From contig WQZW01000092.1 of assembly GCA_009780545.1 (NCBI GenBank), positions 1 through 6,328 on the forward strand: DNA of 6,328 bases, read 5' to 3'. The notes under the pieces are model-generated. The model was not told the origin of the DNA and did not search any database. It saw nothing but the letters and a program-made list of their open reading frames with translations. Origin of the DNA: Treponema sp. GTDB lineage: Bacteria; Spirochaetota; Spirochaetia; Treponematales; Breznakiellaceae. The translations under genes and the position numbers were made by a program. Positions 111 through 6,328 of the stretch are shown in pieces; within the stretch, counting starts at the first letter, position 1, and each line of letters starts with the position of its first letter.

Positions 111-1607
111 CTACCGCTCATGCGCAAGCCCGTATCTTTCGATAAAGGCCAACACCCGGCCGAGGCTTTCGGTCGGCGGAACCCACAGGTCCGGCATGAA
201 GCCCACGCCCTCGAACTGCGAAAAATCCGGGCGAAGGTTTAGCTGCGTACCAAAGATCACGTTGATGCCGCTGCGGGGAAGACCGTCGCGCATTATTTGC
301 GCCGTAAGGGCCATCCCTCTGGTGTTGGTTCCTACGAAGATCACGTTTTCAAATTGGCGCAGGAGACCCGCGAGAATTTCTCCGGCAGACATTACGTTGC
401 CGTCAGTTAGTACGATCAGAAAACTTTCGTTGGGCAACTTCGAGGAAAAAGATTGTAATAGGGAAGTCCACTCAGGACCGTTACCGCGACCTTCATCATT
501 AGACATCGATCGCAACCTGAACTCCCCAAAGAATTGCCCGAACATCGGCCTCCTCCATGTAAAGGCGTCTATCCAGGCAAGCATGGCATCTTCAAAACCG
601 CCCTTGTGTCCGCGCAAATCCAGCACCACCACCGGCCTCCCGCGCAGCGATTCACCGGATTTCCGGAATCTTATTCTCTCTTCCGCTTCAAGAGAAGTAC
701 TGTCCAAGTGCCTATTTTCGATCACGGGAATGCCGTTTATCTCGTATTGGTGAAAAAGCCTATTGGGCGACACGATATTTGGCATGGGTTGCAAGCGTAT
801 GTCCAGCGATAGTTCCTCGTCTGTCTTCACGGACTCAAGGAGAACCGACATTGGTTGCGGGCCCAGCGGATCCCAGGCTGCGAAATGACCGAAGACGAAG
901 GCCGCCTCGCCGTCGCGAGTAAGCGTGGGAAGAATCCCGTCAACCTTTTGCCCGAGGAACGTGGCCTCGATAAACCTGTATTCAATATTATCAATTGTAG
1001 TAACAAACCCATCATCTATTTTGCGTAGGATGAACTCCTCGTTGATACGTGCGCTAAGCCTGGGAGCCCAAAGCGTTATGTTATGAAGTTGAAAATGGTT
1101 GTCGGCGATTACCGGTCCAAGCCCCGGAACCAGTATGTCGCGGAGAAGTGCCATACCTGTTATGGTATCTGGCATTTTTGCGAGTCGCTCCAGCATGGAA
1201 TTGCGAATTGGTATAAAAACCTCGTCACCGCCGAAATACCGATAGCCGGCGTAACCGTATTTCATCAGATCGAAAAGGAGATTTATATCCTTTGCCGCAT
1301 CCTCGCGCGGAATGCTGTCCGACAGGCGATTCTCTGGCCTAATTTCCCGAAAGCCCTGCCCGGGGGAAAACAATATCCGCAGTTTTTCGTTGGCGATTCT
1401 AAGGTCTTCCTCCCGAGTCAGACCCTGGGTAAGGAAAACATCGGCTCGTTCGCGGAAGTCGTCGGGAAAAGGTGGTAATGCGATTGCACGGTTTGTTTCC
1501 ATTATCTCTCGAAGATGCGGCGGGATGCCGGCGGGCTCGGGATTGGAGCAAGCGGCAAGGAGAAGGGTGAAGAAAACGGTTAAGACAAATCTTGAAAAAC
1601 GTTTCAT
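111..1607 (-). CDS. S41-family peptidase lipoprotein (tricorn/IRBP-like catalytic layout)
   Basis: Predicted 498-residue exported lipoprotein. The ATG at 1607 gives a compact signal peptide: basic MKR, a hydrophobic stretch and the lipobox L17-A-A-C20, so the mature protein should be lipid-anchored at Cys20. An AGGA about 10 bases upstream supports this start. The C-terminal half carries S41 hallmarks: VVVLDLRGHKGG (around 326-337, as in the family's LDLRGNGGG) and the nucleophile motif DGNVMSAGE with Ser407. Tail-specific proteases (E. coli Prc) have Lys 25 residues after the Ser; here that position is Met432, in GTNTRGM. Upstream, ADNH with His171 matches the D-G-H motif of tricorn/IRBP-type S41 proteins, which use Ser/His chemistry. 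I see no clear PDZ domain. The role is unknown; it may process or degrade secreted peptides. It lies 134 bp downstream of a double-glycine peptide gene on the same strand. GC is near 50%, lower than the genes to the right. The family call is firm and the substrate is unknown. Confidence 0.88.
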   Translation of the reverse strand: MKRFSRFVLTVFFTLLLAACSNPEPAGIPPHLREIMETNRAIALPPFPDDFRERADVFLTQGLTREEDLRIANEKLRILFSPGQGFREIRPENRLSDSIPREDAAKDINLLFDLMKYGYAGYRYFGGDEVFIPIRNSMLERLAKMPDTITGMALLRDILVPGLGPVIADNHFQLHNITLWAPRLSARINEEFILRKIDDGFVTTIDNIEYRFIEATFLGQKVDGILPTLTRDGEAAFVFGHFAAWDPLGPQPMSVLLESVKTDEELSLDIRLQPMPNIVSPNRLFHQYEINGIPVIENRHLDSTSLEAEERIRFRKSGESLRGRPVVVLDLRGHKGGFEDAMLAWIDAFTWRRPMFGQFFGEFRLRSMSNDEGRGNGPEWTSLLQSFSSKLPNESFLIVLTDGNVMSAGEILAGLLRQFENVIFVGTNTRGMALTAQIMRDGLPRSGINVIFGTQLNLRPDFSQFEGVGFMPDLWVPPTESLGRVLAFIERYGLAHER

Positions 1608-1741: not shown

Positions 1742-1927
1742 TTAGAGGTTGTGGATTATATCACCGATGCCGCCGCCTTTGGGGCGATCAGGGGGAGGAG
1801 GTCGGTTGAACCCGCCATCAGCGACAATGATCGGCTCGGTCCCACCTATACCCCCGTTCACCCTTTCCAGCTCTTCCTGCCCGACGACAGAAAATCCGTC
1901 CACGTTCATGAAGCCGTTTGTGTCCAT
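1742..1927 (-). CDS. double-glycine leader peptide (bacteriocin/pheromone-like precursor)
   Basis: A 61-residue peptide preceded by a strong ribosome binding site (AGGAGG at 1933-1938, 5 nt from the ATG). Residues 15-26 fit the double-glycine leader recognised by C39-peptidase ABC transporters: V15 at -12, E19 at -8, L20 at -7, V23 at -4 and Gly25-Gly26 at -2/-1. Cleavage after Gly26 would release a 35-residue core beginning IGGTEP. The core is rich in Gly and Pro (a PPPP run at 43-46, GGG at 51-53), ends in DIIHNL, and has no Cys and a single Thr, so disulfide- or lanthionine-type structure is not expected. Further Gly-Gly pairs at 28-29 and 38-39 offer alternative cut sites. It is probably exported as a bacteriocin, signal or surface peptide; no transporter or modifying enzyme lies in the window. 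The S41 lipoprotein gene follows on the same strand. The gene is well supported and the leader assignment strong; the function of the core is unknown. Confidence 0.8.
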   Translation of the reverse strand: MDTNGFMNVDGFSVVGQEELERVNGGIGGTEPIIVADGGFNRPPPPDRPKGGGIGDIIHNL

Positions 1928-3822: not shown

Positions 3823-3925
3823 TCTTCCTCCATTAAAAACGGTTAAATCCCGATACACGGAAATCAATTCATAATGCGCGGGGGGACAACCCCCCTTCGC
3901 TCCAGACTTGCTACCATTACGGTGT

Positions 3926-3948
3926 GGAGTTTGGCTTCGCAAAACTCC
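3926..3948. repeat. 23-bp palindromic repeat, copy 1
   Basis: An imperfect palindrome with arms GGAGTTTGGC and GCAAAACTCC around a 3-nt loop (TTC). It matches the copy at 4170-4192 at 21 of 23 positions in the same orientation. One arm mismatch (the second G of TTTGG) is repaired in copy 2. Confidence 0.75.
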
Positions 3949-3951
3949 TAA

Positions 3952-4140: not shown

Positions 4141-4167
4141 ATCCAATCTACCGAAGGCAGATTGGAT
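4141..4167. repeat. 9-bp inverted repeat
   Basis: The arms ATCCAATCT (4141-4149) and AGATTGGAT (4159-4167) are perfectly complementary. Within the 9-nt loop a further CC/GG pair encloses GAA. It is immediately followed by the second 23-bp palindrome, so the two may form adjoining hairpins. Confidence 0.7.
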
Positions 4168-4169
4168 TC

Positions 4170-4192
4170 GGAGTTTTGCTACGCAAAACTCC
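4170..4192. repeat. 23-bp palindromic repeat, copy 2
   Basis: A perfect hairpin with 10-bp arms GGAGTTTTGC and GCAAAACTCC around TAC. It is a near-identical direct copy of 3926-3948, and the pair brackets about 220 bp of the palindrome-rich gap. It lies 48 bp downstream of the acpS stop. No T-run follows it on the minus strand. Confidence 0.75.
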
Positions 4193-4240
4193 ACCCCGCC
4201 GGTAAACCGCCGGCATTTCCGCAAGCCCAAGCCCGGCGGA

Positions 4241-4612
4241 TTAGTCCTTTTCAAGTACCACCATCGCCGCCGCGTATTCACCCTCGTGGCTTATCGAAAG
4301 GTGAATCCCGTTTGCCCCGCTTTTCTCCAGCGCCTTTTTCGCCGTTCCTGCCAGGCAAAGCTCCGGACGGCCGCAAGGCCCGTCCTTCACCCTGATGTCC
4401 CGCAGGGCGATGCCGACCAGTCCCGTTCCCAGGGCCTTACCGAAAGCCTCCTTGGCGGCAAAGCGGCCGGCCAGGGAAAGTGCCGCCCCGGAACCCCGGC
4501 CCAGAACGGCCCGTGCCTCGGCCTCGTCGAAGTACCGCATCAGAAGGCCCGTTTCCGGCCAACGCCCCATCCGGGCGGCCTTCACCAAATCGAGTCCTAT
4601 CCCTATGATCAA
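4241..4612 (-). CDS. acpS: holo-[acyl-carrier-protein] synthase AcpS
   Basis: A 123-residue cytoplasmic enzyme that moves 4'-phosphopantetheine from CoA onto a serine of acyl carrier protein, activating it for fatty acid synthesis. Family motifs: IIGIGLDLVKAARM at the N-terminus with the Mg-binding Asp8; GRFAAKEAFGKALGTG (49-64) with Glu55, the other conserved metal ligand, and Lys59; and LSISHEGEYAAAMVV near the C-terminus (105-119). Length is typical (about 120-126). The start is TTG at 4612, because IIGIGLD must begin at the very N-terminus and no ATG is available; AAGGTG lies about 9 nt upstream. TTGA overlaps this start with the TGA of the YbbR gene, so translation is probably coupled and restrained by the weak codon. 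The stop is TAA. After it comes the repeat-rich gap. The identification is secure. Confidence 0.95.
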   Translation of the reverse strand: MIIGIGLDLVKAARMGRWPETGLLMRYFDEAEARAVLGRGSGAALSLAGRFAAKEAFGKALGTGLVGIALRDIRVKDGPCGRPELCLAGTAKKALEKSGANGIHLSISHEGEYAAAMVVLEKD

Positions 4613-5667
4613 TTGTCGGCACCTTCGGCCTCGGCCTCACCCTCATCTTCACCTTCATCCGGTATCTCGTCTTCCTCCGGGGAAGTCTCGAAGCGTACCC
4701 TGAAGGTAACGCTCTGCGGATTCTGGTTGATCAGGATAAAGTTGTCCGGCAGATTCACCGTCACCTGCAGCGTGTAGGTTCCCTCGTCGATGATGCCGGA
4801 AGCGTCGACGGAAAGCAGTCCCTCGGTAACCCGGAAGCCGTCCACCCGGAACCGGCTTCCCTCGATGCGGATGCTGCCGAAACGTTCCCCGAAGTCCGTC
4901 CGAAGGTTCGGGGCAAGGTCGGTCAGCTCTATCGGTATGTTCTCGATGGTACGCACCGGGATCGTGGCCCTCACGACGCCGGAAAATTCCGCCGTGCCGC
5001 TTCCGATGGTAATCAGCGGGTCGGGATTGACGATGGTAACGGTAACGGAAAAGTCGGCGTTCCTGCCGTCCAGAAGCACCGGCGAAGTGGCAAGCGAGGA
5101 AATGCCCTGCAAAAGACCGGCCGGCCCGAAAACGGCCACCTCTCCCGGATTCAGGGAGTGGGAAACCAGGTCGAAGCCCGTCGCCACGCCGCCGTGCAGG
5201 GGAGTGGCCAAAGGCAGGGACAGATCGACGCGGCGGTCCAGATCAAGGACGATCTCGATGGGATTGACGGAAACCTCAAGCGGCTGAACGGCCAACGCAT
5301 TCCCGCTCCGTTTGACCTGCACCGCCGCCCGGTACCGGCCGCCGCTCTCATGACGGGAAAGGTCGACGAAGGCCTGCAGGTCGCCGTCGGCCACGGAGAG
5401 AACGCCGTCCCCGTCTCCCCGTATCTGCACCCGGACGCTGGAGGGAAAGGCGCCGGAGGGAGTCAGGGTGCCGTTCGTCACCACGTTCAGGGGGACGATG
5501 AGGGTGCGGGTGGACAGGGTATTTACCCGGTAGACCATCCCCAGGGCCAGGGCGAGGGCCACCGAAAGTATCTTTGCCGGCCAGTTCTCCAACAGCTTGG
5601 GCAACCAGGCCGGTCTGGGCAAGGCGGCCAGTTTCGACATCCTTTCCCTAAGGTTTGCCGGAAACAT
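4609..5667 (-). CDS. YbbR-repeat membrane protein (CdaR-type partner of CdaA)
   Basis: A 352-residue protein with a cytoplasmic N-terminus, one membrane segment (about 31-47, AKILSVALALALGMVY) and a long extracytoplasmic part. That part contains three YbbR-like beta domains, roughly 56-142, 147-235 and 236-327, with recurring patterns such as VRVQIRGDGDGVLSV, EVAVFGPAGLLQGI and SIRIEGSRFRV. The last 24 residues (329-352) are almost all Glu, Asp, Gly and Ala. In Firmicutes, CdaR proteins of this build bind and modulate the diadenylate cyclase CdaA; the same role is inferred here from adjacency. The ATG at 5667 was chosen because AAAGGAGG lies 5 nt upstream; this overlaps the end of cdaA by 20 bp. 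The internal ATG at 5640 has a weaker site. The downstream acpS start overlaps the TGA stop. The domain call is confident and the partner role likely. Confidence 0.9.
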   Translation of the reverse strand: MFPANLRERMSKLAALPRPAWLPKLLENWPAKILSVALALALGMVYRVNTLSTRTLIVPLNVVTNGTLTPSGAFPSSVRVQIRGDGDGVLSVADGDLQAFVDLSRHESGGRYRAAVQVKRSGNALAVQPLEVSVNPIEIVLDLDRRVDLSLPLATPLHGGVATGFDLVSHSLNPGEVAVFGPAGLLQGISSLATSPVLLDGRNADFSVTVTIVNPDPLITIGSGTAEFSGVVRATIPVRTIENIPIELTDLAPNLRTDFGERFGSIRIEGSRFRVDGFRVTEGLLSVDASGIIDEGTYTLQVTVNLPDNFILINQNPQSVTFRVRFETSPEEDEIPDEGEDEGEAEAEGADN

Positions 5668-6328
5668 CCCCGCCTCCTTTGGACAATATTCCCCCGTTGG
5701 AAAGGCCGTTTCCTTTGAAATCACCATCCTCGGTCTGCATCGTCCTCGCGCCCTCTTCGGCATCGGCCGTACGCCGGCCCTCCGGTCCCAAAAGGGTCCG
5801 TATCCGCTGGGATATATCCGCCGGGGAAAGGTCGTAGTAAAGCCTCGAGTCGCAGGCCAGCGAGATCGCCCCGGATTCCTCGGAAACCACCAGCACCACG
5901 GCATCGGACTGTTCGGACATGCCCAAGGCCGCCCGGTGCCTGGTCCCGAAGTTCCGCCTGATGTCCTTCTGTTAGGAAAGGGGCAGGAAGCAGCCGGCGG
6001 CAACGATCCTCCCATGCTGGATCACCATGGCCCCGTCATGCAGGGGACCGTCGAACTCGAAGATCGAGACGATCAGGCTGGACGAGATGTCGGCGTTGAT
6101 CCTCGTGCCGGTTTCGGCAATTTCCTTCAGGCCGGTCCTGCGGGGAAAGACCGCCAGCATGCCCCGCCGCTTCCCGGAAAGTATCTCGGCGGCGGTAATG
6201 ACCGCCTCGAGCTGGCCGATGCCGGCCTTTACGTTGGCCTTGAAAAAATCCGTCTGCCCCAAATGGAGGATGATCTTGCGAAGCTCCGGCTGGAAGATGA
6301 TAACGATGGCGATGAAAATTCCCGGGGC
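5648..6328 (-). pseudogene. cdaA: diadenylate cyclase CdaA, 3' part, interrupted by in-frame TAA
   Basis: CdaA condenses two ATP into cyclic di-AMP at the inner face of the membrane. The gene enters from the right edge, so the N-terminal membrane helices are missing; the visible frame begins APGIFIAIVIIFQPELRK, the usual link into the DisA_N domain. It continues to PLHDGAMVI, with the catalytic DGA motif at 6029-6037, and AAGCFLPLS, where it meets TAA at 5972-5974. The same frame resumes at once with QKDIRRNFGTRHRAALG (RHR motif at 5933-5941), then VVLVVSEESGAISL and a polar Gly-rich tail ending at TAG (5648-5650). No base is gained or lost: the TAA sits where B. subtilis CdaA has Glu (LPLSE). 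A protein stopping there would lack RHR and be inactive. No good ribosome site precedes the ATG at 5926, so a separate second half is unlikely. It is either a recent nonsense mutation, a sequencing error, or readthrough. Family identity is certain; its state as a pseudogene is not. Confidence 0.85.
5673..5680 (-). promoter_or_regulatory. strong Shine-Dalgarno that sets the YbbR start
   Basis: AAAGGAGG on the minus strand, 5 nt before the ATG at 5667 and inside the cdaA coding region. It decides between the two candidate YbbR starts. It also allows YbbR to be translated independently of ribosomes completing cdaA, which matters given the premature stop in cdaA. Confidence 0.8.

Follow-up and report, generated by a model that had tools for sequence, protein, structure and literature searches.

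Does the TAA that stands in frame inside the cdaA gene of this contig reflect a cyclase gene broken in the organism, or a wrong letter in the assembly? The window, that is, the whole stretch of 6328 nucleotides analysed here, carries the gene at its right-hand edge in three parts.

5975..6328, minus strand: part of cdaA ahead of the stop, with PLHDGA; the 5' end of the gene lies outside the window (Pfam DAC, 71.5 bits, profile 2-75 of 119; translation)
5972..5974, minus strand: TAA in frame inside the DAC domain of cdaA (translation; sense codon in 80/80 kept related loci)
5648..5971, minus strand: part of cdaA behind the stop, with GTRHR, as far as the terminal stop codon (Pfam DAC, 50.8 bits, profile 78-118 of 119; translation)

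Translated on the minus strand from 6328 to 5645, the gene reads ...FEFDGPLHDGAMVIQHGRIVAAGCFLPLS, then the stop, then QKDIRRNFGTRHRAALGMSEQSDAVVLVVSEESG..., with one inner stop. The reading runs from the window edge at 6328 to the terminal stop of the gene at 5648, and the TAA at 5972-5974 interrupts it, with PLHDGA ahead and GTRHRAALG behind. The stop is preceded by 118 residues and followed by 107, and each of the two pieces singly passes the curated cut-off of Pfam DAC (PF02457, 27 bits). Because the frame resumes without an indel, the pieces represent a single gene with an interruption, as opposed to a chance frame. The first-pass annotation had described an in-frame TAA that splits the two motifs of cdaA with the frame kept on both sides, and the translation and both DAC matches confirm this. 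The stop codon lies outside any homopolymer; therefore, the local letters give no hint of error.

The DAC domain contains both the DGA and the RHR motif, both in frame: PLHDGA precedes the stop and GTRHR follows it. The assignment of the gene to cdaA holds as well, since a near-identical intact protein from another contig, P0001, passes the NCBIfam equivalog TIGR00159 (223.6 bits versus 188.8). The window gene thus resembles CdaA (TIGR00159; DAC PF02457) in its two DAC motifs, its ybbR neighbour, and its near-twin P0001, and differs from it in the TAA between DGA and RHR and in having its 5' end outside the window. In the region missing from the window, where the N-terminal membrane segment of a CdaA would lie, P0001 has a 68-residue N-terminal extension.

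P0001 is 294 residues long and comes from a contig listed as 1299 bases. It agrees with the window's cdaA at 224 of 226 residues, differing only at the stop and at residue 234 (window positions 5831-5833). At residue 234, P0001 has Val and the window has Asp; among the matches listed, the other homologues have Asp in 114/119 and Asn in 5/119. Therefore, it is P0001 and not the window that departs from the family here, and the window copy shows no further wear at this position. An error or a private change is possible in P0001 too, and given the odd Val234 its contig could be of low quality or from a divergent strain. Judged from the protein alignment, an intact version of the window's cdaA is present in the same or a closely related population. 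P0001, compared as protein alone, may stem from a sister strain and not from the same cells. The full ybbR query retrieved the protein of the window itself, and the other matches, in a list of 50, were at most 57% identical, so no second ybbR allele appeared there; the first 130 residues of ybbR, used to look for a ybbR piece on the 1299-base contig of P0001, had no match at E ≤ 0.001 among 68 candidates; and an exact 27-base piece of the window's cdaA had no match in viral_contigs.

The column of the stop is nearly invariant in relatives. Among the best 120 of 7997 homologous proteins, it holds Glu in 119 and Asp in one, consistent with the earlier proposal that the stop replaces a single residue, commonly Glu. 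At the DNA level, 80 of the 89 related loci found were kept, and all 80 have a sense codon in this column (69 Glu, 4 Gln, 2 Ser, 2 Thr, 2 Ala, and 1 His), the loci without Glu being the more distant rows. The nearest loci in the genome collection are from Treponema and Spirochaetaceae bins, whose names we take to come from termite-gut studies; the first rows are 58-71% identical and the distant rows go down to 36%. In the aligned part of the 80 kept loci, no stop occurs ahead of P0001 residue 258, which lies behind the DAC domain. In 8/80, at least one stop falls within P0001 residues 258-279, that is, within the variable tail that follows the domain, and we read these, without a check of each, as the genes' own ends. 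The residue after the stop and the GTRHR motif are conserved in the window as in relatives.

These counts bear on the suggestion that programmed readthrough or another recoding yields full-length CdaA from the stop-bearing gene. The conservation in frame on both sides of the stop would fit such a mechanism, but a very recent change explains the conserved frame equally well. Moreover, a stop in this column is found in 0/80 kept loci and 0/120 listed proteins; the loci are the fairer count, since read-through proteins would not be listed as such. We know of no use of TAA for selenocysteine or pyrrolysine. No Rfam match at gathering scores was obtained within the window, and an RNA element near the stop was rejected on this basis. 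Readthrough, which the first-pass annotation had offered as one explanation, is therefore unsupported, no related sequence examined having a stop in the column, and we regard it as very unlikely.

Since each piece has one active-site motif, the two could in principle be made separately and assemble into a working cyclase. However, no listed relative is split at the stop point, and the earliest start codons in frame behind the stop (TTG at 5926 and a methionine codon just behind it) lie beyond RHR, so an internal restart there would lose that motif. Intact CdaA converts two ATP into c-di-AMP, and the accessible part of one report describes DGA and RHR as both required for ligand binding (PMC8573169). 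The product ending at the stop would be without RHR, and the later starts lie beyond it; therefore, neither piece should work alone. We consider a split enzyme more improbable still than readthrough.

Downstream of cdaA lie ybbR, acpS, a DUF2225 gene, and truA, of which the first two are as follows.

4609..5640, minus strand: ybbR (cdaR-like), the usual neighbour downstream of cdaA (Pfam YbbR, 59.7 bits; start taken from P0121)
4241..4612, minus strand: acpS, ending in TAA (Pfam ACPS, 49.8 bits, profile 1-110 of 111; stop codon)

The six other frames are free of inner stops by construction, having been selected for being open. The evidence for their completeness is profile coverage, which is good for acpS, the DUF2225 gene, and the S41 gene and weaker for ybbR (10-72 of 81). 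TAA ends acpS and the small peptide frame, TGA ends ybbR and the DUF2225 gene, and TAG ends truA and the S41 gene. A reassignment of TAA in the organism has nothing in its favour apart from the stop itself. Against it, TAA closes both acpS, whose end coincides with that of its Pfam profile, and, as the first-pass annotation correctly noted of both, the small peptide frame; the related loci also have a sense codon at the site. We therefore agree with the earlier statement that a reassigned code is not the answer; it is rejected on the TAA ends of other frames and is the least probable of the readings considered.

Some other features of the window may be recorded here. A 61-residue frame (1742-1927, minus strand) precedes the S41 gene, which has the same orientation. 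Its start resembles a double-glycine bacteriocin-type leader (...QEELERVNGGIGG) and its tail is proline-rich; it has no Pfam match, and its score with TIGR03949 (class IIb bacteriocin) is 14.3 bits (E 0.027), below the cut-off of 21.5. The peptidase S41-like protein (111-1607, minus strand) has, in our own reading, a lipoprotein-like start. The third-position GC of its gene is 0.58, below that of five other measured frames (0.66-0.82), possibly a sign of a different origin. A 23-base near-palindrome (GGAGTTT...AAACTCC) occurs twice between acpS and the DUF2225 gene (3920-3951 and 4167-4198); its copies are the two arms, separated by 215 bases, of an inverted repeat of 32 bases.

The stop might be tolerated if a second cyclase served as backup, as the first-pass annotation had suggested. 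Each of 12 genomes reached via the related loci has one DAC match, and the 39 genomes of the genus of one of those 12 have one match in 35 cases and none in 4. With 8 genomes common to the two sets, 43 are distinct. Exactly one DAC match, without an inner stop, is present in 39/43, none in 4/43, and two in 0/43; the 4 without a match are possibly incomplete genomes. As related genomes have one match or none, a spare cyclase is not expected, and the backup is rejected on these counts, by kinship only. The accessible part of one report describes one DAC in Borrelia turicatae, reported as important, and cdaA mutants that are viable and attenuated, with possible suppressor changes (PMC8316131).

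The counts also weigh on a more serious alternative, that the stop is a genuine and recent nonsense mutation carried by part of the population, with cdaA broken, its pieces unjoined, and c-di-AMP synthesis lost or compensated elsewhere. The sequence shows the stop unambiguously, and it is the only inner stop. Because P0001 differs at one residue besides the stop, more than one allele of cdaA may exist, and the Borrelia turicatae mutant with its possible suppressors, in what is accessible of that report, provides a viable precedent (PMC8316131). On the other hand, the single DAC gene in 39/43 related genomes suggests that a null would be costly, with no spare DAC in those genomes; at position 234 the window has the residue common in the family; and no added wear is seen, the third-position GC being 0.83 before the stop, 0.75 after it, and 0.78 in ybbR. 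Neither several lesions nor relaxed constraint, as expected of a decayed pseudogene, were found: there is one stop and no indel, the flanks are conserved, and the third-position GC is kept. Given that the pieces should be inactive alone, together with the Borrelia turicatae data, a null that had become fixed would be unexpected, and the sober interpretation is either an error or a null allele that is rare. Of these two, we hold the null allele to be possible but the less probable.

The preferred reading attributes the TAA to an error, in the base or in the assembly, close to where a metagenome contig ends, with cdaA probably intact in the organism. The database lists the ybbR protein of the window, P0121 (343 residues, 100% identical over 97% of the 352-residue ybbR query), on a contig of 6328 bases. 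Therefore, the window appears to be the whole contig, which breaks off inside cdaA at a distance of 354 bases from the stop. Metagenome contigs often have low coverage at their ends. The error is supported by the lone in-frame stop, the near-invariant Glu column, the intact near-twin P0001, and the nearby contig end. As with ordinary nonsense changes or assembly errors in metagenome contigs, the case involves a single position and no indel, beside an intact near-twin and a contig end, and no difference from such cases was seen in the window. Of the explanations put forward earlier, a base error or very recent lesion thus fits best, with a lone stop, no other damage, and an intact near-twin. 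We infer that the wrong letter is in the assembly and not in the cell. The cdaA of the organism would then encode an intact membrane-bound diadenylate cyclase that converts ATP into c-di-AMP, beside ybbR. The ranking of the five readings reflects our judgement and not a computation.

It is unlikely that a true cdaA null has reached notable frequency in a termite-gut-type spirochaete whose relatives have one cyclase, with c-di-AMP synthesis either absent or compensated. If the stop were true, the organism would be a natural one-cyclase spirochaete strain without c-di-AMP, useful for asking when the messenger can be lost. As it stands, the stop matters little for the biology of the organism and serves as a caution against reading biology into a lone stop at the end of a metagenome contig.
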